A stretch of DNA of 20,969 nucleotides from a virus. Of the stretch, positions 119-13,131 are shown one piece after another. The notes beneath the pieces are model-generated. The model worked only from the letters and a program-made list of their open reading frames with translations. It searched no databases and was not told the origin of the DNA. The position numbers and the translations under genes were made by a program. Every line of letters begins with the position of its first letter. Positions within the stretch are counted from its first letter, which is position 1. The stretch spans positions 1 to 20,969 of IMG/VR virus record IMGVR_UViG_3300006925_000199. One strand, given 5' to 3'.

Positions 119-2575
119 CTAATTCTTATTCTTTGTAAAGTCTGGATTTGTTGAGCTATTTAAAAAGGAGTCGCCTAAAGTAGCGTCAGCTACAGACGTA
201 GCGTTAAACGCGCCTTGTAATATAGCTAAAGGTGGTGATGCTTTGGTGGCTACCTTACTGATAGCCCTACCTAGAAGTTTACCCCCAGACAATGGGTCAT
301 TTTTAAAAGTTTCTATAAAGTCTATTTTAGATTTACCGTCAAATACTTGCTCTTGTAAAAACATAACCATAGAGTCCACGGAGCGTTCTCCTGACGCATA
401 AGCATCTCGCAGGCCTTTTATAAACTTTAAATTTTTATCTAGTTCTTTTTTAGGCATTTTGGTAAAGTAGCCTGTCTTCTTTTTAGACTGTACTTTCCAA
501 GCCTCTTCTACTCCGTCAAAAAGTTGGTCCATAGTAACTTTACGACTGAGGATAACTTGGTTGCCTCTTCCCCCTCCTGCTGCGAATTGTCTTGCGCGGC
601 TTTTATTGGGAGTATGAAACTTACCAACGTCGTCACTTCCATACCCGTAGTCTGTTGGATTTACTTTTTCTAAGTCGAGAGGTTCCCCTCTGTACACTTT
701 TACTTTATCACCGAGAGCATACGCTTGTGGATTTTCAAGAAAGCTGTTCTGTGCAGCCATCTGCTGACCCTTCTCTTCGATGCGTTCTTTAACTTCCGGT
801 TTACCACGATTGTTTATCTTGGTAAGGCGGTCTTCACCGATAATTTTGACGAGATGGGGTGCAACCGTCACTTCTCCTCGTGATACGGCTACATCTATTA
901 GTTTAGCACTGCGTTCTGGATTGTCAACTGTTATTCCGCGTCTAACTGCCTCTTTCTGCGCGTCTTTAAGCATTTTCATGATGTCAGACTCGCCTGCGAA
1001 CTCAACAGCGGCTGCATTGATGATGAACGTACCCTCTTGCTTTTGAGTGTTTACGTTGTCTGCAACTGACTCTGCTTCGGATACTTGACTAGGCGGCGCA
1101 CCAATAAATCCAGACGGTGCCATGCCTGCTGCCATCTGTCCACCTGCAGCCATGCCGACTCTGCCGCCTTGGGCCATAGAGCTTTCTGTAGCTTCCGCTT
1201 CACTGAAGCCCCCAAAGTCACTTCCACTTACAGAGCCGCCGCCGCCGCCTGAATAGTCACCCATCTCCCCGCCGCCTTGACCCGTATCGCCGCCATCATC
1301 CATGGATGGTCCAGTAGTTTGGGTTGCTCTTTTCCACGCATCCTGCGCCGCTTTTTGTGCTTTATCTCTCGCGTCTTGTGCCGCTTTATCTGCGGCTGCT
1401 TTATCAACTTTAGCTTTTTCTGCTGCCATAAGACCCGAAACAGTACCTCTACCGTTTCTGGCATCCTGTAGAATGCTCTTAACTTTGTTTAGGTCTGTTA
1501 CACCATACTTTGCTCCCAAGGCTCTGGCATCTGCTTCCATTCCAAAGGCTGCAGTTTGGCCTGTGGCTGTCATGTATGTGCCGTTATCCTTATAATATCC
1601 ACCCGTGCTTAACCTACCAGAAACATACCCAGCATCCGCCAAAGACGTACCAGTTTCCTTTTGCATGTTATACGAGGATGGAAGATATCCTTTATTAAGA
1701 GATTCTAAGGTTCTTGCCTGAACGTGAGAAAGACCCCTCATGTTTCCAGTGTAAGTTCCTGACCCCGGCGCACGAGTTATGCCAAATCCACCGATAGACA
1801 TTGCAAACCCTGTAGCACTCGCGTTAGCTGCTGTAGCTGCCCTTATCTGTGCCATATCCTGATACTGTTTAGAATGGACCATATCCGCAACAAAGCCTAA
1901 TGCTCCACTTGGTCTAAACGACGCATTTCCAAAAGCATTTGTAGTGGTTGTGCCGTTTATAAAACCACCTGCTATACTTCCGGGGATACCACCCACAGCA
2001 CCCATAAGACTTCCTACGACCTTTTCTTTATTTTTTTCGGCGGTGGCCTTTAAACCTGTTTGTTGTAGGTCTTTAGCAGTTTGGTCTACTGCGCCGGGAA
2101 TTTGTTGAACATTTTTTATACCCGAATCAAACAGCGCACCCGGTTTTATGTCTTTAAAGTCACCGCGAGTAAGCGGGTCAAACACTTCGCTAAACATCTC
2201 AACTCTGTCGTGCTGTCCCGGCTGTTGCTTTAAAAAGTCACCGTATGTATTATAATTTTGTGTAAAGTTAAAATCCGCAGCATCTTCACCAAACTTAATA
2301 TCCCCGCCTAAAGCACCGGAGTCTCCACCTAACGCACCGATTAAGTCTCGTTCTAAGTTAGCTCGTGAATCTTCGTTTCCGTCACTTGTATCTTCTGCAG
2401 ATGAATCACCACCAATTTTAGGGGCCGTAACATCAATACCTGTCTGCTCCTCTAGAGTGGGCATACCTAAAGTTTGACTAAAAAAATCAACGTAAGAGGA
2501 TTCATACTGCTTTCTTGTCAGCACTTCCTTTTCGTCTTCTTTTCTAGTCGTGCCTAGCTGTATTCTGTCAACCAT
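119..2575 (-). CDS. Large virion-associated protein with possible ADP-ribosyltransferase-like C-terminal region
   Basis: An 818-residue protein just downstream of the portal. Residues 1-110 are acidic. Residues 185-265 are Gly/Ala-rich with glycine-zipper-like stretches. Residues 380-415 form a Lys/Ala/Asp coiled coil, followed by a Gly-rich linker at 424-456. Residues 465-530 hold AQGGRVGMAAGGQ and the segment GTFIINAAAVEFAG. From about 620 the protein looks globular again: VYRGE (627-631), GKFHTPNK (651-658), and an acidic pair E690-E691. This order loosely recalls R-S-E ADP-ribosyltransferases, but homology is unproven. The start ATG overlaps the stop of the 73-residue gene by eight bases (ATGGTTGA), pointing to translational coupling. 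Position and composition favour an internal or ejected virion protein; a tail or scaffold role is possible. Confidence 0.7.
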   Translation of the reverse strand: MVDRIQLGTTRKEDEKEVLTRKQYESSYVDFFSQTLGMPTLEEQTGIDVTAPKIGGDSSAEDTSDGNEDSRANLERDLIGALGGDSGALGGDIKFGEDAADFNFTQNYNTYGDFLKQQPGQHDRVEMFSEVFDPLTRGDFKDIKPGALFDSGIKNVQQIPGAVDQTAKDLQQTGLKATAEKNKEKVVGSLMGAVGGIPGSIAGGFINGTTTTNAFGNASFRPSGALGFVADMVHSKQYQDMAQIRAATAANASATGFAMSIGGFGITRAPGSGTYTGNMRGLSHVQARTLESLNKGYLPSSYNMQKETGTSLADAGYVSGRLSTGGYYKDNGTYMTATGQTAAFGMEADARALGAKYGVTDLNKVKSILQDARNGRGTVSGLMAAEKAKVDKAAADKAAQDARDKAQKAAQDAWKRATQTTGPSMDDGGDTGQGGGEMGDYSGGGGGSVSGSDFGGFSEAEATESSMAQGGRVGMAAGGQMAAGMAPSGFIGAPPSQVSEAESVADNVNTQKQEGTFIINAAAVEFAGESDIMKMLKDAQKEAVRRGITVDNPERSAKLIDVAVSRGEVTVAPHLVKIIGEDRLTKINNRGKPEVKERIEEKGQQMAAQNSFLENPQAYALGDKVKVYRGEPLDLEKVNPTDYGYGSDDVGKFHTPNKSRARQFAAGGGRGNQVILSRKVTMDQLFDGVEEAWKVQSKKKTGYFTKMPKKELDKNLKFIKGLRDAYASGERSVDSMVMFLQEQVFDGKSKIDFIETFKNDPLSGGKLLGRAISKVATKASPPLAILQGAFNATSVADATLGDSFLNSSTNPDFTKNKN

Positions 2576-2789
2576 TCTTGATTACCGCCTCGTGGTTACT
2601 CTTGAGTTTGAGGAGTGTTTCCAGTAAAGCCAGCTTCCCCTGCGCCCGGAGCAGTTCCGACTCCGATTGTGCCGTCACCACGCCCTGAATCGTCAGTTCC
2701 CGGAGGTCCTGCAGGTACTCCTTCAGGGCTTCCCATTCCTTGCCCTGCACCAGCGGGGCCAGCGTCTGCGCTTGCTTCTTGTTGAGCAT
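2568..2789 (-). CDS. 73-residue helical protein overprinted on the portal C-terminus
   Basis: The frame begins at ATG 2789-2787 (MLNKKQAQTLAPL), inside the portal gene but in another frame, and ends eight bases into the next gene. It is predicted to be almost wholly alpha-helical: W19 in GKEWEALKEYL, then SESELLRAQGKLALLETLLKL at about 42-62. Small phage proteins with this pattern (WxALxxYL, then an LRxxQGxLxxLxxLL helix) commonly follow portal or packaging genes; I recognise the type but cannot name it. AAGGGA lies a short distance upstream. The portal frame over the same bases is Gly/Pro/Ala low complexity, so the helical frame looks like the constrained one. The 8-nt overlap with the 818-residue gene supports translation. 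Confidence 0.7.
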   Translation of the reverse strand: MLNKKQAQTLAPLVQGKEWEALKEYLQDLRELTIQGVVTAQSESELLRAQGKLALLETLLKLKSNHEAVIKNG

Positions 2790-4713
2790 TTGCCATCATC
2801 CCTTGTAACATCTTTGCATACAGTTGAGCTTCGTTTTGGTCGTTCACCAGACTATCGGGGTCGATGTCCTGTGATATAGCCAGTTCACGCATCAGGTTTG
2901 GTATCTTGATGAATGGTGCTAACATAGGGTTAGCGACTGTTTGTAGAAGCGTTGTCAGCCTCTGGCTACGAACTTCTTTCTGCATTACGGCTGCAACACC
3001 GCGTGGTTTGATTTCTAGGTCACCCTCGATGTCAGGGGAGTCTTCGTTAAACTGCATGTTCCACTGGAAGTATGCTTCACCCAATGGCTTTAGCAGCATG
3101 TCGTCAATGTTCTTTACGACTGTCTTCATTGCCAGACCAGCAGAACCCATAAGCATGGATAATCCTGCCGCTGTGCGGCCCGTACCACTAACGCCCGTCT
3201 GACCGTGCATAATGGATGGGATACCAGTTTCTTCGTCAGCCAACTGGCGGCTAATCTGATACATTTGTAGGTTTTCACCAGCCGTGTTAGGAAACTTCAA
3301 ACCGTTGATGGCTGTCCCTGTAACACCTGATTGGCGACGGAATATCTTACCGGGGAATATGTCCATGTTTTGGCCCGGCACAAGGCTTGCCTCATCCACG
3401 TCAAACACCAAGTTACCTGCTAGAGCTAGGTTATCAATAGCCATGCGTACGTGACCATTCATGAGCTTTTGAGCGTCTTCCATGTTCTCTGCTACACCAA
3501 CACCCCATAGCTGGTAAGGGTTGACTTCGTAGGGGAACACTTGATATGGAATACGGGCTGGTGTGAAGGGGTTAAGAACACAACGAAGTATCATGTTTCC
3601 ACAAACCCAGATGTTTACCTGTAGTTCGTCAAACTCTGACATCATATCTGCTTCTGCAAACCCTGCTGACTTAGCTAGGTCAGCGTCAAGAACACCCCAG
3701 TATTCGAGAACTTCGTAGCGGTTCTCTGAAACGTATGGTTCGTTTTCATCTTCACGAATTGTGTCTTCGTAATACTTATCTTCGTAGTTAGGGCCTTTTG
3801 CTAGGCACTCTTCTATAGCTTCCGAAATAAAGTAAGGACGCTTGATTAGTGCGCGAAGCTGTTGGCGGTTTAGTCTGTGACGTTCTATGACGTATTCACA
3901 GTCATCTATGCTGGTAGCGGATGGGTCTGGGTGGAAATCCCACGAAGACACCATTTCGATTTTAGGTACAACCTTCTCGTAGGGCTGGTATTCCCGATTA
4001 CCCTCGTCGTCACGGCCCCACTTGTGGACACGCTTGTAAAAGTTAAAAGGCCCCTTGACAATTCCTGTGCCAAGAAGGGACGATTCAAATATAGCGTTTC
4101 GGAAAACGTTTACTGCGTTGGTATCTAATAACTGGTCATGGATAACTTTTTCCATGTTCATCGCTGCAATTTGTGCTGGGCTAATCTGTGGTTCACCCAT
4201 CTTTGCAGGACCTTCAGCGAGTGGCAAGCTGCCATACTCTCCTTGAAGCCCACCGAGAAACTTACTAGATGGCGTTGCACCTAATTGTCCGGGTGGCAAA
4301 TCACGCCCATCACCAACAAAACCATACGGGTCTTCCATCTGGTCTAGCGGTGTCTCCATATGTGCAAACTCCGCAATCCCTTCGGGAATAGGAGTGTGCT
4401 GTACGACTAGAGGAAACTTCTTGTTAGCAAACAGGATATCTACAATCTGCCCGTAAGCAGCCAAAACTTTAGTCTTGGTGATTCTAACGAACACCTTAGA
4501 CCGTTCTGAATCACGGTAGGCTGTAGAAGAGTCGTAAACACCACGAAAATTCTTGTAGGCTTGCAACCAACGCTGCTCGTGAGAGTAACGTCCGTTTTCA
4601 GCTTCTTCGAACTTCTGTTTTACGTATCCTGCTAGACCGGGAAAGGTTTCATCCGCGTCATACAGTGGAATGGTCGTGTCATCTTCAGGTTGAAGGAAGT
4701 TATCATCTGCCAT
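2596..4713 (-). CDS. Portal (head-tail connector) protein
   Basis: A 705-residue protein expected to form the twelve-subunit ring at the capsid vertex through which DNA is pumped and to which the tail attaches. Evidence is size, position after the large terminase, and sequence type: an N-terminal region with RWLQAYKNFRGVY and YRDSERSKVFVRITKTKV (about 48-84), the middle block with PYEVNPYQLWGVGVAENM, and VSGTGRTAAGLSMLMGSAG, the last typical of portals of short-tailed phages. The length suits podovirus portals, which are larger than most siphovirus ones. The last 60 or so residues are Gly/Pro/Ala-rich low complexity and carry the overprinted 73-residue gene. It starts three bases after the stop of the 72-residue gene with only a weak Shine-Dalgarno sequence, so coupling is likely. 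Confidence 0.88.
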   Translation of the reverse strand: MADDNFLQPEDDTTIPLYDADETFPGLAGYVKQKFEEAENGRYSHEQRWLQAYKNFRGVYDSSTAYRDSERSKVFVRITKTKVLAAYGQIVDILFANKKFPLVVQHTPIPEGIAEFAHMETPLDQMEDPYGFVGDGRDLPPGQLGATPSSKFLGGLQGEYGSLPLAEGPAKMGEPQISPAQIAAMNMEKVIHDQLLDTNAVNVFRNAIFESSLLGTGIVKGPFNFYKRVHKWGRDDEGNREYQPYEKVVPKIEMVSSWDFHPDPSATSIDDCEYVIERHRLNRQQLRALIKRPYFISEAIEECLAKGPNYEDKYYEDTIREDENEPYVSENRYEVLEYWGVLDADLAKSAGFAEADMMSEFDELQVNIWVCGNMILRCVLNPFTPARIPYQVFPYEVNPYQLWGVGVAENMEDAQKLMNGHVRMAIDNLALAGNLVFDVDEASLVPGQNMDIFPGKIFRRQSGVTGTAINGLKFPNTAGENLQMYQISRQLADEETGIPSIMHGQTGVSGTGRTAAGLSMLMGSAGLAMKTVVKNIDDMLLKPLGEAYFQWNMQFNEDSPDIEGDLEIKPRGVAAVMQKEVRSQRLTTLLQTVANPMLAPFIKIPNLMRELAISQDIDPDSLVNDQNEAQLYAKMLQGMMANAQQEASADAGPAGAGQGMGSPEGVPAGPPGTDDSGRGDGTIGVGTAPGAGEAGFTGNTPQTQE

Positions 4714-4716
4714 AAT

Positions 4717-4935
4717 TTAGTAATCGCGTTCTTCAGCCATTTTCATTACAGAAGGGTCTACTGCACCCTTGGTCGCTGCCTTTGGCATGTCTTCAGTCAA
4801 AGAATCTGTCTTGGCACGAGTGTCAAATTCTAAACCTTCACGGTAAAGAGTCTTTGACCCCATCTCATCGTCAACAGATGTCTTGTCTGAGTTCATGATG
4901 TAGGATGCGCCATAATTGTAATTATTATCAGGCAT
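4717..4935 (-). CDS. Small acidic protein between recombinase and portal, unknown function
   Basis: A 72-residue hydrophilic protein starting MPDNNYNYGASYIMNSD and ending AEERDY. No domain is recognised. I chose the ATG at 4935 over the ATG two codons earlier at 4941 because GGGAG at 4946-4942 sits six bases from the former and directly abuts the latter. The gene lies 12 bases after the recombinase-like gene and 3 bases before the portal, inside a tightly packed late operon, so a small structural or assembly role is plausible. Nothing in the sequence shows which. Confidence 0.65.
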   Translation of the reverse strand: MPDNNYNYGASYIMNSDKTSVDDEMGSKTLYREGLEFDTRAKTDSLTEDMPKAATKGAVDPSVMKMAEERDY

Positions 4936-4947
4936 GGTCATCTCCCA

Positions 4948-6705
4948 TTATCTAGTTAAAAAGCCTTGGTCTTGTTCAATGGCAGGAGCGGCTTCAGGTC
5001 CCCTGTCACGTCCTAAGTCGATAAAACCTGCCTGTTCTTCGGCAGCTATGCGACTAGCAGGTGTTGTGCCAAACGTGTCAGGCTCTGACCGTCCAGCAGC
5101 AATGTCTCGTACGTCACTGTACCCTATAGGGCCAAACTCTGATGCGCCAGCGATGGCAGCAAGGGCAGGAGAGTCTGTAGCCGCTTCTACCTCAGTTGCT
5201 GTTGAGGCAGCAGTTGCTGCAGTCAGGCCTAAACCCAAAGGTCCTAGTGCCTTTTTGACAGGGCCGGGAACTTTACCGAGATACTTATTGATTCCATCCG
5301 CCATCGACTTTGCGTCAAAGCCTTTCCGTTCCAAGTTGGCACGAGCTTCTGGGTTGGATTCAGGAACTACGTCTGCGTCAGCACTCGCCAGTTTAGCAGC
5401 CTGTCTACCTTTAATCTTAGCTTCTTCTATAGCGCGAGACTTATCTTCAGCTTCTTGAATTTGTTCAGGGGTGATAGCAGCTAGGGTAGAAGTTCGTTTT
5501 GCTTCGGCTTCGGCTGTTGCTGCCGCTGCTTGACTTTGTTTAGCACGTTCTTCTGCTAATATGGTTGTTTGCTGCTCAGAAGCAAGGGCTTCTTTTTGTT
5601 CGTCAGTTAAAAGGTCTAGGTTTACACGGCCTGTCTGTGTGGTACCAAACTCACCACCTGCAAAGTCTACGGGACTTTCAATCAGGGCAGGTAGGTCTTT
5701 TTGGGGTACAAAGCCAGCGTAGTTCTTTTTCAAGATAGACGGGTTTACGTGGCCCATCATACCTTCAACGAAGTTTTCGTTTACGTTGTATTGCTCTAAC
5801 ATGAAACGGGGTACGATAGAGCGGATAACAGATGGTGTGGTTACAGGCTCGTAATTGCGAACTAGCTCACCCGCAGGAGAACGACTTTTTATTTCTTTTG
5901 CTGGGAGTATGTTAGCGAAAGGTTGGAGACGAGTTCCAATGTGCTTGTTGAAAGCATCCGTGAAGTCTCCATCTGTAACGTCAAACAGATAATCGGATGT
6001 GCTTGTATCGTAGTTCTGTTTTAAAAGACGGCCTAAACGCGAATTAGTATCAAAAGAAAGTTCAGGGCGACCCTTGTGGTCTTTCTTTGTTGTTACTTTG
6101 CCTTTTACTGTTATGGTATCACCCACAATAGTAACGTCTGACTTTTTAAGACCTAACAGTTGTTCAGGACGATTTGCTGTAGCTTTGTGGTACTCTAGTA
6201 GGTCTGATGTAGGTTGACCATACTCGGCTGCAACAAGAGGAGTTGCTTCTGCGTATATCTTATCTAGCTCTTCTTTAGGAAGAAGACCTTGCATAGGACG
6301 TTCGCCAGCTAAACCTGTGCGTTGTGTTCCTGCTAAACCTTTTGCACCAGCTAGTTGCGGGTACATAATCTCGTCAACACCCTCGGCTACTGTCTCCATA
6401 GCGGCTGTAGCACCGTAACGCTCCATCACGGGGCGTACCAATGCTTCTAGTGTTTGGAGATTGTAAGCTCTGTTCTTAGCGTCGGGGCTACCTTCGACAG
6501 TAAACAGCTTGATTACGTCAGCTTGCTTGAGGTCTTTGTAGGGGGTACTCAGGTCAATACCTAATGTTTTAGCACCAGACTTAATAGGGTTGATGCGCTT
6601 CTTTTGCTTTTCGTCAGCCTTAGACATGGCAAAATCCCACGCCTCGCCAAGCGTGAGAGTACCGTCTTTTGCTTTTTTACCTAATTCTATATCCGTGAGT
6701 GCCAT
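4948..6705 (-). CDS. Tyrosine recombinase (integrase-family) with long C-terminal extension
   Basis: A 585-residue protein. Residues 15-100 resemble a core-binding SAM-like domain (LTLGEAWDFAMSK, then IDLSTPYKDLKQADVIKLF, then an R/L-rich helix). Residues about 165-335 resemble the catalytic core: NRPEQLLGLKKSDV with Arg179 (box I); a lysine beta-hairpin at 201-212; SVIR at 292-295 in place of the usual HxxR; GMMGH with His319; and NYAGF with Tyr329, the candidate nucleophile, ten residues after the histidine. Only the box II histidine is replaced, by serine, so activity is possible. Residues 340-585 are extra: an Ala/Glu-rich coiled coil, then a Gly/Ala hydrophobic stretch (about 480-520) and an acidic tail. 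The gene abuts the TerL stop (TAGATG) and lies before the portal, an unusual place for an integrase. A virion role for the extension is inference. Confidence 0.72.
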   Translation of the reverse strand: MALTDIELGKKAKDGTLTLGEAWDFAMSKADEKQKKRINPIKSGAKTLGIDLSTPYKDLKQADVIKLFTVEGSPDAKNRAYNLQTLEALVRPVMERYGATAAMETVAEGVDEIMYPQLAGAKGLAGTQRTGLAGERPMQGLLPKEELDKIYAEATPLVAAEYGQPTSDLLEYHKATANRPEQLLGLKKSDVTIVGDTITVKGKVTTKKDHKGRPELSFDTNSRLGRLLKQNYDTSTSDYLFDVTDGDFTDAFNKHIGTRLQPFANILPAKEIKSRSPAGELVRNYEPVTTPSVIRSIVPRFMLEQYNVNENFVEGMMGHVNPSILKKNYAGFVPQKDLPALIESPVDFAGGEFGTTQTGRVNLDLLTDEQKEALASEQQTTILAEERAKQSQAAAATAEAEAKRTSTLAAITPEQIQEAEDKSRAIEEAKIKGRQAAKLASADADVVPESNPEARANLERKGFDAKSMADGINKYLGKVPGPVKKALGPLGLGLTAATAASTATEVEAATDSPALAAIAGASEFGPIGYSDVRDIAAGRSEPDTFGTTPASRIAAEEQAGFIDLGRDRGPEAAPAIEQDQGFLTR

Positions 6706-8409
6706 CTAGTATCCGAACGTCCCATCAAAGGGTTGGAAGGCTTGGTCTTTTATGCCTTGCAATGATTTATGAATTGATGTATAACCACTTGTACGAGTCA
6801 TAACCATATAACGGAGCGCATCATATGCGTGGTCTTCTGCTTTTGTATCTACGTCTTCACTGTTGGTTTTGGACAGCGGAATACCTGACATCTGTGCGAC
6901 AGTGTGTTTACAGGTTGCGAAGATTCGTAAACGTGGTTCTTGAGTATACGGGTCGTCCGATAGTCTTCTATGGAGTTCCATCTTTCCTTGCAGTCTATTA
7001 CGGTCAGATGGTGTCCATCGAACACCTGCTCTCATCATGGTTTCTGCGATAGATGGTCCGAAGCCTGTTTTGTTCCAACAGGAGGCATCAAGGACGTTGT
7101 AGTGGGGTAGAGGGTCTAACTCCTCCATTTCTAGTATTTTATCAGCTAACTGCTCTGCTGTCAAGTGTTTAGCGTATAACTCTTTATACACCCATATATT
7201 GTTGTCCCAGTCGATTGCACCCCACAGGACGCAAGAAGGACTAGCGTAGCCATAATCCGCAGCACGAATCCGGGGCCAGTTGGTTGGCATCTCGAAAGGT
7301 TCGACGACATGTTTGGAACGGGAGAACTCAGGAAAGGCTGCGCCTTCTGCTACATCCCAGTCTCCATCAAGTAGCCTGCGACGTTCTACGTCTGGTAACG
7401 AACGAAGCATTGCTTCATACTGTCCGTCAGCCATGAGGTAGGGGTTGTCAGTTAATCTAGCTGGTACAAATTTTCTATAAAAGAGAGGCTGTCCTGCTCT
7501 TGTAGGATGTGTGTCAGGCCAAAGAAACGCTCTACCCGTCTCTGGGTCATACGCCGGAAAAGCCTCATTCTCCGTGTGCTTCTCAATGTACATCTTTTTA
7601 ACCCACCAGCCGCCGACACCACCGGGGTTAGCAGTACATCGCATACAGAGGTTTTTCTGTAGTTCTGGGTCCGTTGACCGAAGACGTGAACGCAAATAAT
7701 CCCAAACATAGCTACTCGGATACTGGGTGATTTCATCAACGCCTATCCAGTTGAACGCCTGACCTTGAAAACGAGTTACGTCTTTGTCGCGGTCTAGATA
7801 GGTGAACCACATGGTTGCCCCAGAAGGGAAAACCCAAGTGGATTTGGATTCCCGATATACGGCTCCGGGAAATGCCTTTGGATAAAGCTGCTTGGACTTG
7901 TCTATTAGTTCTGTTAGTTCGTCAAGAGTCCGGCGAAGAAGCAACCCACGATGGTTAGCATTATGGCAGTATCGTAAGGGGTCGGCAAGAAGTGCGAAAC
8001 TCTTACCACCACCCGCTGCACCGCCGTACAGAACATCTTGTTCAGGGGCTGATAGGAACTCTTCTTGAGGACCGTCATTAGGTTTGAATATAACAGGGGT
8101 ATCATCAATTATTTCCTTGACCGTTGCCGGGAGATTGGATACGTCATCCATATCTACAACCCGCGAACCTGTGCCGTTGATTGCGGTCTCTACCTTCTTG
8201 GCACTCTTCTTTAGCTTACGTGCGTAGCTGGCTTTATCTTGAGCTTTTTGCTGGTGCTTCTCTTTAGCCTTTTCAGCTTTGCGAACACGAGCCTGTAGCG
8301 CACGTCTGGCTCTTTCAGCGCGAGAAAGATTGTAAGTTGCCTTTGGCGCATTGGGGTCCTTCTTGGGCCTACCGCGCTTTTTCGGAGGATTGTCCTGCTG
8401 TTCTGCCAC
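6706..8409 (-). CDS. terL: Terminase large subunit (packaging ATPase and nuclease)
   Basis: The motor that pumps DNA through the portal and cuts concatemers. From the start chosen here it has 567 residues: Walker A GGAAGGGKS (129-137), Walker B WIGVDE (221-226), and an RNase H-fold nuclease with acidic residues Asp385 (RAADYG), Asp441 (NVLDAS) and Asp530 (HAYDALRY). The frame is open upstream to a TTG at 8451. I prefer the GTG at 8409 because AAGG lies six to seven bases before it and the protein then begins MAEQQDNPPKKRGRPKK. An ATG at 8433 is the main alternative. About the first 75 residues are highly basic, with an AT-hook-like RGRP. The start overlaps the preceding 156-residue gene by about 40 bases. 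Confidence 0.92.
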   Translation of the reverse strand: MAEQQDNPPKKRGRPKKDPNAPKATYNLSRAERARRALQARVRKAEKAKEKHQQKAQDKASYARKLKKSAKKVETAINGTGSRVVDMDDVSNLPATVKEIIDDTPVIFKPNDGPQEEFLSAPEQDVLYGGAAGGGKSFALLADPLRYCHNANHRGLLLRRTLDELTELIDKSKQLYPKAFPGAVYRESKSTWVFPSGATMWFTYLDRDKDVTRFQGQAFNWIGVDEITQYPSSYVWDYLRSRLRSTDPELQKNLCMRCTANPGGVGGWWVKKMYIEKHTENEAFPAYDPETGRAFLWPDTHPTRAGQPLFYRKFVPARLTDNPYLMADGQYEAMLRSLPDVERRRLLDGDWDVAEGAAFPEFSRSKHVVEPFEMPTNWPRIRAADYGYASPSCVLWGAIDWDNNIWVYKELYAKHLTAEQLADKILEMEELDPLPHYNVLDASCWNKTGFGPSIAETMMRAGVRWTPSDRNRLQGKMELHRRLSDDPYTQEPRLRIFATCKHTVAQMSGIPLSKTNSEDVDTKAEDHAYDALRYMVMTRTSGYTSIHKSLQGIKDQAFQPFDGTFGY

Positions 8410-8839
8410 GATGTACCTTACCGCCACGCGCATAGGCTGGCTTTGATGCAAATAGAGAGATAAACGCGCCTAGTCCGGGAATCGAACGTAAGCCAATAGA
8501 CTTTGCAAGGTCTTTGGCTGTAGACTTGGTTGCACCTTTGATTACATTTTTCTGTTCTTTGATGTATGCCTGACGAACCTTTCGGTCTTCGGCACTAAGG
8601 TCCTGTGGTTGAATTTTTTCTAGTTGCTCTAGCTTTTGCTGTGCTACTCTGCGTGTAGACTCTGCAATATTTGCTTGACGAGTGACTTTATCTGCGTCAC
8701 GTTTTTTCTGACGCTTCTTTTTAGCCTTGCGTATCTGTCGGTTGTCTGAGTCTGCTTCATAGACTCCTAAACCAGCACCTGCAGCACCAACAGCAATAGC
8801 AGTAGCACCTACAGCCTTTTTAACGTCGTTGTCAGCCAT
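8369..8839 (-). CDS. Small membrane-type protein between terminase subunits, unknown function
   Basis: A 156-residue protein. It has a Gly/Ala hydrophobic stretch at about 9-27 (KAVGATAIAVGAAGAGLGVY), a long basic coiled-coil middle at 33-110 (KKKRQKKRD, RRVAQQKLEQLEKI), a second short hydrophobic stretch near 120-135 (SIPGLGAFISLFAS), and a basic tail with ARGGKVHRG. Two hydrophobic ends around a charged middle could suit a membrane-interacting or DNA-binding virion protein, or less likely a holin; none is proven. The start overlaps the small terminase stop by eight bases (ATGGCTGA), the same arrangement as at the 73-/818-residue junction. Its 3' end runs about 40 bases into terL. Confidence 0.65.
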   Translation of the reverse strand: MADNDVKKAVGATAIAVGAAGAGLGVYEADSDNRQIRKAKKKRQKKRDADKVTRQANIAESTRRVAQQKLEQLEKIQPQDLSAEDRKVRQAYIKEQKNVIKGATKSTAKDLAKSIGLRSIPGLGAFISLFASKPAYARGGKVHRGRTAGQSSEKAR

Positions 8840-10561: not shown

Positions 10562-10975
10562 CTACGCCCCCTTCTTTACTAGCTGGTACTGCATCCGGTT
10601 TCCTTTACCTGCAGATTGAACGCCTTTAATATTGTATCCTTGCGCCTTCAAATACGAAATAGCTGAATGGACCACTGAGCTAGACAATCCCGCATCCTTT
10701 GCAAGGGTCTTGATAAGCACCGGATACGCCCGCCGCTTGAATACCGCCAGTAATGCCGCCCCATTTGTATTCGTGGCTGGCTTCTTTACAGGTGCCACAA
10801 CTGGCAAGCTCACGGGTTCCCCAAAACGTGCCGCGGTTGGTGCCGCCGCCGTTGTTTGCTGGATATCCGCCAAGAGTTCAAAGGCCTTAACCACATGTTC
10901 GCGGCTCATCTTATCGCTACGAATGGCAAGGTTTAACTGGTTCTTGATTTCGTTGATTTGTGTTTCGTTTAACAT
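10562..10975 (-). CDS. Winged-helix DNA-binding protein, candidate regulator
   Basis: A 137-residue protein in three parts: an N-terminal helical region (1-40, ETQINEIKNQLNLAIRSDKMSREHVVKAFELLADI), a Pro/Ala-rich linker (41-70), and a C-terminal winged helix (71-137), where YPVLIKTLAKDAGLSSSVVHSAISYLKAQGYNI is a clear helix-turn-helix and KGNRMQYQLVKKG the wing. I start at the ATG 10975, not the in-frame ATG at 11026, because AAAGGA lies upstream of the former and nothing of the kind precedes the latter. An inverted repeat over its predicted promoter (11030-11049) suggests autoregulation. The N-terminal half probably dimerises. It could control the 9.4-kb promoter pair; the target is inferred. 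Confidence 0.68.
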   Translation of the reverse strand: MLNETQINEIKNQLNLAIRSDKMSREHVVKAFELLADIQQTTAAAPTAARFGEPVSLPVVAPVKKPATNTNGAALLAVFKRRAYPVLIKTLAKDAGLSSSVVHSAISYLKAQGYNIKGVQSAGKGNRMQYQLVKKGA

Positions 10976-11029
10976 GGTTTTTTTGTTCCTTTCTATTGAA
11001 CAAAGATTGAGTAGATAATTAAGCATAAC

Positions 11030-11079: not shown

Positions 11080-11216
11080 TAATCCCCCAGCTTTCCAGTC
11101 AGCATCATGATTTCATCGAAATGCTTTCCTGCGGTTTCATTATCGCCAGACATAGCGGCTTCTGCTAGCAGGGCAAGTGATGCCCTGATTGCTGTTTTGA
11201 TTTCGAGAATGGACAT
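11073..11216 (-). CDS. 47-residue small protein, unknown function
   Basis: The frame starts at ATG 11216-11214 and ends at TAG 11075-11073, giving MSILEIKTAIRASLALLAEA and on to GKLGDYC. The start overlaps the stop of the DUF932 gene by one base (TAATG), a classic coupled junction. The protein is amphipathic and helical with no transmembrane segment. No family is recognised. The tight junction with the gene before it, and a length just enough to fill the space up to the next promoter, make it a likely real gene that length cut-offs would miss. Confidence 0.55.
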   Translation of the reverse strand: MSILEIKTAIRASLALLAEAAMSGDNETAGKHFDEIMMLTGKLGDYC

Positions 11217-12202
11217 TATGCCGCCGCCAATTCTAGGGACTGCCAAGCGTCACCCGTTAAGATATCCCGAACATGCCCAGACCGGACGCGCTGAGTATCA
11301 TGCTGTTTTTGGGTTGATATCCCCTTTTCCATTGTATGGGTAGACCAGTGAGTGAGCGCATTATATCCCGCCCACATCGTCTCGCCCAGTTCGTCGGTCT
11401 CTTCTGTGAATAAGTCCATCATGTAATTAAACAGACTTTTGTTTACCAGACGGTCACCTTCCTTATCGCTTGGCCTTGCTGGTCTAGCACAAATCGAGCC
11501 TTCCAGTATCTCGGCAAACTGTCTAGACGACAGAGGACGACGCGCCCAGTTGTCCATCACTTCACGCTGGCCTGTGAACATGTCCAGCGATAGCATAGCC
11601 TTTCCGGTCATCGCGCTGGTATCTAGATTGCGGGTATGTTTCCGCTTTTGGTGATATGCCTTTTCCCCGCCAAAGACTAGGGTATTACGGCAGAGGTCAC
11701 GATAGGCACCAGAGAACACTTGAAACGCCCATGACATGTCTATCGAATTGAACACGTCCAAACGTGGCACGACGCTATCATTGCCCGCCCTGCTCTTCAC
11801 CTCCGACGTTAAATCAGTGAAGTAAATAGTCCGGTGCGCCTTCTTCCCTTGTTCGAAAAGACGGTCTACCACCTTAACAGACTGGTTCCGCAACTCGCTA
11901 TCTTGGATTTGTTCAGCTTGTTTTTGTAACATCGTTTCATGCGGGACTAGCTGGTAGGATTTAGGGACGGGTCGCATCTGGACAACTTCACCGGATGCCC
12001 GATTAAAGATAGCATCAAAGCCCGTCATTCTTTCAGGGTATACGATATCATCAATAGACGGCTCTGCAACAACTGGCACCCGCTCGAATACGGCCCGTTG
12101 TGTGAATAGGTCAAGATTAAACGGGTTCGAATGCTGGTATTCCCAGCCGTCCCTTATCTCTTTTAGTTCCCCAAAAGGGAGTGTGGTTAAATCATTAGGC
12201 AT
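11216..12202 (-). CDS. DUF932 (phage/plasmid-like) family protein
   Basis: A 328-residue protein of the DUF932 family found in many phages and plasmids, of unresolved biochemical role. Recognisable parts are the N-terminal VVQMRPVPKSYQLVPHETML (about 74-91), the core FNSIDMSWAFQVFSGAYRDLCRNTLVFGG (151-179) with the family's A/YR-x-x-C-x-N pattern followed by a histidine (YHQKRKHTR), and MWAGYNALTHWSTH near the C-terminus. The length is usual for the family. The protein is soluble. It is preceded by about 240 non-coding bases and coupled to the 47-residue gene. Members often sit among host-takeover or plasmid maintenance genes, which suits this block; function remains open. Confidence 0.8.
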   Translation of the reverse strand: MPNDLTTLPFGELKEIRDGWEYQHSNPFNLDLFTQRAVFERVPVVAEPSIDDIVYPERMTGFDAIFNRASGEVVQMRPVPKSYQLVPHETMLQKQAEQIQDSELRNQSVKVVDRLFEQGKKAHRTIYFTDLTSEVKSRAGNDSVVPRLDVFNSIDMSWAFQVFSGAYRDLCRNTLVFGGEKAYHQKRKHTRNLDTSAMTGKAMLSLDMFTGQREVMDNWARRPLSSRQFAEILEGSICARPARPSDKEGDRLVNKSLFNYMMDLFTEETDELGETMWAGYNALTHWSTHTMEKGISTQKQHDTQRVRSGHVRDILTGDAWQSLELAAA

Positions 12203-12441: not shown

Positions 12442-12452
12442 TTAATGCGTGG
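12423..12452. repeat. Outlying copy of the 23-bp AGCGTGG/ATTTGTCA repeat
   Basis: AGCGTGG (12423-12429), three bases, ATTTGTCA (12433-12440), then TGCGTGG starting at 12446, 23 bases after the first. Element order, inner spacing and period match the array at 13319-13382, about 900 bases away on the other side of the gp88-like gene. It overlaps the 3' end of that gene by a few codons. Confidence 0.5.
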
Positions 12453-13131
12453 CAAACAAAACCTGCTTATCAGGTGCCGACCAGCAAAGCGCACAGTTTG
12501 CACAGTTTGCAACTTGTCCCGTTTGTTCAGGGCAGGCAAATGATTTCCCTTTTGCTGGTTGCGTTCTTTCTAGGCTATTAGCTGAAAAGGAAATGTCCAA
12601 GTCATTACTAAAACGAACAGACCAGCGGGTGCCGAAAAGGTGCCGGACATATGCAAGGGCCTGTCCTATAGGCTCATCCTTAGAGCGTCCGGTATATCCC
12701 CAAGCCGCAAGGTTATCATATAGGCCCAGCATCTTTTCCCAGAAGTTCACATAATCCACCGAATAGAAATCACCCAGAACATGAAGCCGGACTATCACGC
12801 CTTTATATGTGGCGCATAATTCTTCTAGCTCTTCTTCTATCTTGGCTTCAAGTGCTGGCCCGTGTTCGATACGATGCGCGAAGGCCATGTTATTACCATA
12901 ACAATTATCCCAGTGATAACAAGAGCGGGGACAGGTTGCCCGTTCTTCTAGTGTTAGGGTGAGAATGACGTAACCTTTAAACTGGCCTTTCTTTACAATA
13001 GCTAGCTTCCCCTTGTCTGCTATCTTGGTATTCTTGCTGTGTTTTAAGGCACCCGTCTTTATATCTGCGATAGAGCGACGGGCCTTTGGATACATGGTAA
13101 AGGCTGGCTTGTTTGTATCTGCTTTTTTCAT
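12442..13131 (-). CDS. gp88-like cysteine-rich phage protein
   Basis: A 229-residue protein resembling the mycobacteriophage gene product 88 family. Visible parts are RRSIADIKTGALKHSKNTKI (19-38), a cysteine cluster CPRSCYHWDNC (67-77), RLHVLGDFYSVDYVNFWEKM (115-134) with His117 and Asp121, the core WGYTGRS (144-150), RFSND (173-177), and a second cysteine group from Cys200 to Cys216 (CPEQ, then CANCALC). Such clusters suggest a bound metal or iron-sulfur centre. The enzymatic role of the family is not established to my knowledge. The ATG at 13131 has AAAGGA about ten bases upstream. The gene is flanked by copies of the 23-bp repeat and has a possible promoter of its own. Confidence 0.75.
   Translation of the reverse strand: MKKADTNKPAFTMYPKARRSIADIKTGALKHSKNTKIADKGKLAIVKKGQFKGYVILTLTLEERATCPRSCYHWDNCYGNNMAFAHRIEHGPALEAKIEEELEELCATYKGVIVRLHVLGDFYSVDYVNFWEKMLGLYDNLAAWGYTGRSKDEPIGQALAYVRHLFGTRWSVRFSNDLDISFSANSLERTQPAKGKSFACPEQTGQVANCANCALCWSAPDKQVLFATH

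Follow-up and report, generated by a model that had tools for sequence, protein, structure and literature searches.

Why would a gene with the marks of a tyrosine recombinase (YR) lie among the packaging and portal genes of a phage, and what might its product do there? The question is raised by a virus contig of 20,969 bases, the whole of which is called the window here. Its terminase large subunit (TerL) is 50–55% identical to those of the HMO-2011-type isolates CRP-2 and HMO-2011, and motifs of the CXXCXGXG type, which are known from this group in the literature, occur in the reading frame of its DNA polymerase. The source clade is a set of uncultured marine short-tailed phages, to which the HMO-2011-type podoviruses are distant kin. 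All members of the clade are metagenomic, many of the contigs are partial, and the sequences are not independent of each other.

The gene in question (4948..6705, minus strand, stop codon included), hereafter the slot gene, is an open reading frame of 585 codons with an ATG start. The first-pass annotation had described it as abutting the terminase gene terL (6706..8451, minus strand; phrog_979, E=4.4e-61) and this is exact, as its first base directly follows the terL stop codon (gap 0). On the 3' side, a 6-nt gap and a conserved 74-aa ORF (4717..4941, minus strand) separate it from the portal gene (2596..4713, minus strand; PF23899 SU10_portal, E=2.8e-30), behind which lies the gene of a modular post-portal protein (119..2575, minus strand). 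The slot gene is placed in the late packaging/portal operon. In CRP-2 and HMO-2011, the portal gene is directly behind terL with no gene in the slot position, and an integrase of approximately 300 aa is located upstream of the primase gene, whereas no integrase was found upstream of the primase gene (15533) in the window. The YR is out of its usual place, as had been remarked before.

Small ORFs between terS and terL (8369-8839, minus strand, in the window; 67-1066 in L016; 5922-6311 in L015) differ among relatives, and several of them, otherwise different proteins, share an HRGR[KRT]A-like C-terminal motif. The window further encodes a 229-aa protein with clustered Cys (CPRSCYHWDNCYGNN ... 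CANCALCW; 12442-13131, minus strand) that has relatives, for example at 1758-2486 of L015. A DUF932 protein (PF06067, E=9.9e-20; 11216-12202, minus strand), likewise present in relatives such as L015, is encoded in the small-gene region and adjoins an HTH-containing 154-aa ORF (10562-11026). An in-frame stop in the TerL reading frame of L010/L046 (556-2295) may be due to faulty sequencing or to decay of the gene.

The description of the slot protein as a YR with a C-terminal extension is borne out by the ORF, PHROG_1, a PDB profile, and structural matches. The window protein matches the PHROG_1 integrase family (E=2.5e-10, aa 140-438) and PHROG_216 (E=5.5e-4); on its own it has no Pfam match, and an NCBIfam search gave nothing useful. 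A profile of 65 relatives matches the XerC-like structure 4a8e in the PDB (E=2.6e-9), and among the 65 slot proteins 50 match PHROG_1 and 28 match PF00589 at E ≤0.01. The AlphaFold2 model of the window protein (type Y02) matches lambda Int, XerH, XerA, and Tn1549 Int in Foldseek and VIA-align, and a Y09-type model likewise has YRs as its first structural matches, so that the structure prediction proposed earlier came out in favor of a recombinase fold; whole-model TM values are low because the tails are disordered. In searches of Pfam, PHROGs, and NCBIfam, the YR domain is the only recognizable domain of the window protein.

The N-terminal region (aa 1-135; 6301..6705, minus strand) is helical and core-binding-like in the model, with VIA-align rows spanning aa 17-361. 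A GTQRTG motif at aa 126-131 is strictly conserved in the alignment of relatives. The catalytic domain (aa 140-345; 5671..6288, minus strand; PHROG_1 and Foldseek/VIA-align) carries the residues named previously, R179, S292xxR295, H319, and Y329, including the His-to-Ser change of box II at Ser292. Read from the alignment, a YR core is present in 65/65 complete distinct slot genes, with Arg-I, Arg-II, His or Arg, and Tyr kept. R179, F241, R295, and F582 are invariant, and a Tyr occurs within the 23 residues after position 319 in 65/65; position 319 itself is His in 27/65 and Arg in 38/65, so among the catalytic residues conservation holds for Arg179, Arg295, and Tyr and only in part for His319. 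Counted by type, the third catalytic position is His in five of the 11 YR types and Arg instead of His/Trp in six, and the first position of box II is Ser, Tyr, or Ala in 58/65. Among members of one type, dN/dS estimates for the core lie mostly at 0.03-0.35, which indicates purifying selection. With the box II His missing and Arg at the third position in 6/11 types, these proteins are best called putative recombinases.

Beyond approximately aa 345, a helical Ala/Glu linker (aa 346-475; 5281..5670, minus strand; DSSP on the model) leads to an exchangeable Ala/Gly-rich tail module (aa 476-565; 5011..5280, minus strand; 17 types within the clade), which is modeled with low confidence as are the other tails, and then to a conserved C-terminal end with a ...QGFLTR motif (aa 566-585; 4951..5010, minus strand; F582 in 65/65, G581 in 63/65). 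This is the order of Ala/Glu and Gly/Ala parts that had been read from the sequence, together with the suggestion that such a protein might be packaged or anchored. A hydropathy of at least 1.6 over 19 residues is reached by 6/65 tails and the window's tail is not among them; most tails are insufficiently hydrophobic, and a transmembrane tail is not supported for most members. Anchoring accordingly has weak support, while packaging and delivery gain support from the Cys content, the C-terminal motif, and the operon position.

Relatives were collected as loci with a TerL at least 75% identical to that of the window, and a large gene lies directly behind terL at 90 such loci (repeated contigs counted), giving 65 distinct complete proteins of 519-851 aa and 10 partial ones. 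Average linkage at 40% for cores and 45% for tails divides these into 11 YR types, with mean identities between types of 22-35%, and 17 tail types, although both counts depend on the cut-offs; single-linkage clustering merged YR types and was replaced for that reason. Cores and tails are freely combined. The window pairs a Y02 core with a T17 tail; T17 is found behind five YR types, and Y09 in front of five tails. An alignment shows an extra N-terminal module in some Y09 proteins, and L015 (Y05) seems by eye to have one as well. Forty of 40 Y02-related loci are consistent with the slot, with an identifiable terL or portal gene adjoining in 39, and the slot proteins tried, from types Y02, Y09, Y03, and Y06, have no match among 50,697 phage records.

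Exchange of these modules can be followed in the DNA. L016 is 97% identical to the window as far as 5 nt into the slot gene, counted from its ATG, where the YR module becomes unalignable, and 98% identical from about aa 476 through the end of the portal gene; a segment of 5280..6700 (minus strand) is therefore wholly replaced, with a Y09 core for Y02. In L007, the tail module is replaced instead (5009..5386, minus strand), as identity is 96% through the YR module, is lost at aa 440-565, and returns at 94% afterwards. Mapped onto the TerL tree, the YR type switches 29 times or more, where 10 would be the smallest number possible, and more than one YR type occurs within each of six sets of loci whose TerL ends are identical. 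Slot exchange by recombination is recent and clean. The main feature of the slot gene is that phages almost alike elsewhere trade its parts in many combinations.

The slot proteins also have no Cys at all, with 0 in 39,864 residues, while TerL has 73 in 7,357 and the post-portal proteins 0 in 27,322; further slot genes add 0 in 11,613 and 4,502 residues (16,115). Base composition does not account for this, since slot-gene DNA often reads TGT/TGC when translated in its two remaining frames (619 and 2,573 times). Canonical HMO-type integrases contain Cys in 80/80 cases (199 in 23,924 residues), and at that rate, with one representative per YR type, the chance of zero Cys would be 1.6e-16. When ORFs of 150 codons or more were compared in P22, T7, and N4, 8/9 ejected proteins had no Cys, against 6/72 other ORFs (p=8e-7), and the N4 vRNAP has 0 Cys in 3,500 residues. 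Judged by position, several of the Cys-free, non-ejected ORFs correspond to scaffold, needle, or coat genes. As scaffold, needle, coat, and fiber proteins can be Cys-free too, the signature supports a virion or assembly protein and not strictly an ejected one, and the depletion common to slot and post-portal proteins could have some other cause. In a survey of 11 long contigs, a length of at least 400 aa together with absence of Cys was seen only for the slot gene product (11/11), the post-portal protein, an internal-virion-like block, and a few others. A literature search found no description of Cys absence as a mark of ejected proteins.

A further link to the post-portal protein is found at the C-terminus. 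Within their final 30 residues, 94% of slot proteins (3% when shuffled) and 53% of post-portal proteins (2% when shuffled) carry the motif [GSN]F[LIMVF][STNDQAL]; in the Cys-free, mosaic post-portal protein of the window it takes the form DSFLNSS. The motif has few residues, and some Y02 relatives have it in degenerate form or not at all. Hydrolase domains (PF07486 or PF16754) were found in the post-portal proteins of 8/32 relatives. Cell-wall hydrolases are a usual cargo of particles that need to cross a cell wall. The post-portal gene has a mosaic build too, combining a conserved center with swappable C-terminal cargo (PF07486 in 6/32, a pesticin-type muramidase in 2/32), and L004, elsewhere almost identical to the window, has PF07486 where the post-portal protein of the window has another, unassigned domain. 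An ADP-ribosyltransferase domain suspected there by eye had no Pfam match and was dropped.

A more conventional account would be that a temperate-phage integrase has moved from its place upstream of primase, as in HMO-2011 and CRP-2, into the late operon, the types then reflecting different attB sites. Integrase swapping between close phages is common and would suit this account. No second integrase was found in 12 long contigs (PF00589, PHROG_1), which also counts in its favor, and CRP-2 Int gave no tblastn match among the clade loci fetched. Relatives do integrate, as in CRP-3, which enters tRNA-Met (PMC6918029), and have int upstream of the replication module. However, the slot proteins lack the Cys present in all canonical integrases, and signs of lysogeny, such as an adjacent attP, excisionase, or repressor, did not appear: no HTH_3 repressor in the 12 long contigs (mostly partial), neither a tRNA nor an Rfam match close to the slot among scanned contigs, and, in the prophage search proposed earlier, no prophage of the clade by TerL alignment in 84,980 species genomes, where pelagic hosts are perhaps under-sampled. 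The sole match in species-genome contigs was L143 (NVWB01000161.1), a planctomycete MAG contig with a TerL 51% identical, which may be a binned phage contig. Moreover, the close spacing of the genes (gaps 0 and 6 nt) leaves no room for attP beside the slot gene, and since swaps begin no more than 5 nt from the ATG with both flanks untouched, any attP would be either within coding sequence or at an unlinked site. Nor does this account explain why the C-terminal end is conserved, and we regard a relocated integrase as unlikely.

It also seems improbable that the YR fold is retained in a DNA-binding structural ejection protein that has no recombination activity. The lost box II His, the Arg at the third catalytic position in six types, and the virion signatures are all compatible with such a protein, but both Arg and the Tyr are kept in 65/65 across 11 types that share 22-35% identity, and purifying selection is strong. 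The first-pass annotation had further offered a resolvase for concatemers or genome ends. As a late cytoplasmic enzyme acting on concatemers, dimers, or ends during packaging, it would fit the gene's position by terminase and portal, and YRs resolve dimers elsewhere, as XerCD and Cre do. Our searches nevertheless gave this proposal no positive evidence: a limited test, in which coding and intergenic DNA were pooled, found no convincing dif-like 11-bp inverted repeat common to contigs of one type, and CRP-2 and HMO-2011 have no gene in the slot position. Neither 11 interchangeable types on near-identical packaging genes nor the tail mosaic would be predicted, and we consider a resolvase very unlikely.

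We therefore favor as probable that the product of the slot gene is a mosaic protein of the ejection (internal virion) kind, with a YR head, which delivers this YR into the cell with the genome. Delivery with the DNA, among the roles first suggested, survives on the absence of Cys, the motif shared with the hydrolase carrier, and the late-operon position. We infer the virion location, the ejection, the catalysis, and the DNA site of the protein. Expressed along with the late packaging and portal genes, it would enter the procapsid close to the portal by means of its C-terminal end, whose conserved sequence is similar to the one in the post-portal hydrolase carrier, and would leave the particle together with the genome. 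In the new cell, the YR domain would cut and rejoin DNA via a covalent 3'-phosphotyrosine. The likeliest target would be a site either on the phage genome as it comes in (circularizing or end processing) or on the host chromosome, although the searches for attachment sites and repeats turned up no DNA target. The YR, the tail, and sometimes the extra N-terminal module would be swapped by homologous recombination in the conserved terL, linker, and C-terminal segments, and slot type may thereby change faster than the rest of the virion, a behavior established for ejection proteins of the P22 type. More tentatively, it is possible that the delivered protein is an active site-specific YR, and that the clade maintains 11 or more interchangeable recombinases and 17 carrier tails as a pool that reassorts between near-identical phages, so that the DNA target specificity introduced into the cell differs from particle to particle.

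Parts of this proposal have precedents. Cre circularizes incoming P1 DNA. A mutation in P22 gp16 has been reported to affect circularization of transducing DNA (PMC10883804). By analogy with these two cases, handling of the incoming genome by the slot protein is plausible. Ejection proteins are mosaic and highly variable, including those of the P22 type (PMC8954989, PMC10883804), and as they vary among P22 relatives with SieA escape mapping to gp16/gp20 (PMC10883804), a similar pressure may be a reason for the diversity of slot tails.

Compared with the YR superfamily (XerA/XerC/XerH, lambda Int, Tn1549 Int), the slot proteins share the fold, Arg-I/Arg-II/Tyr, a core-binding-like N-terminal region, and in five types the third His, but differ in the replaced box II His, in about 240 extra C-terminal residues, in the lack of Cys, in the Arg at the third position of six types, and in gene location within a late packaging operon. 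The integrases HMO-2011 gp09 and CRP-2 gp19 have the same fold and belong to the same wider phage group, yet are about 300 aa long, contain Cys, and are encoded upstream of primase. The slot gene resembles those for P22 gp7/gp16/gp20, T7 gp14-16, and N4 vRNAP and gp51-52, which are nearly all Cys-free, in its late head-operon position, mosaicism, and variability; podovirus ejection proteins may carry enzyme domains, but none of this set bears a YR, and a review on ejection proteins does not mention one. Polyvalent proteins and other virion-delivered effectors are likewise multidomain, encoded alongside portal and terminase, and proposed to be packaged and delivered. Polyvalent proteins carry several effector domains per polypeptide, whereas the window slot protein has one recognizable domain, and a single catalytic fold has diversified in the clade; their survey does not mention a recombinase or integrase.

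Enzymes delivered from virions are known and include RNA polymerase, ADP-ribosyltransferase, and lysozyme, and we found no packaged phage recombinase in the searchable literature. Total absence of Cys offers a simple and testable sequence sign for ejected phage proteins. If the proposed delivery is true, DNA rearrangement could start before any phage gene is expressed, and the swapping pattern would represent a natural set of recombinases under selection for change.
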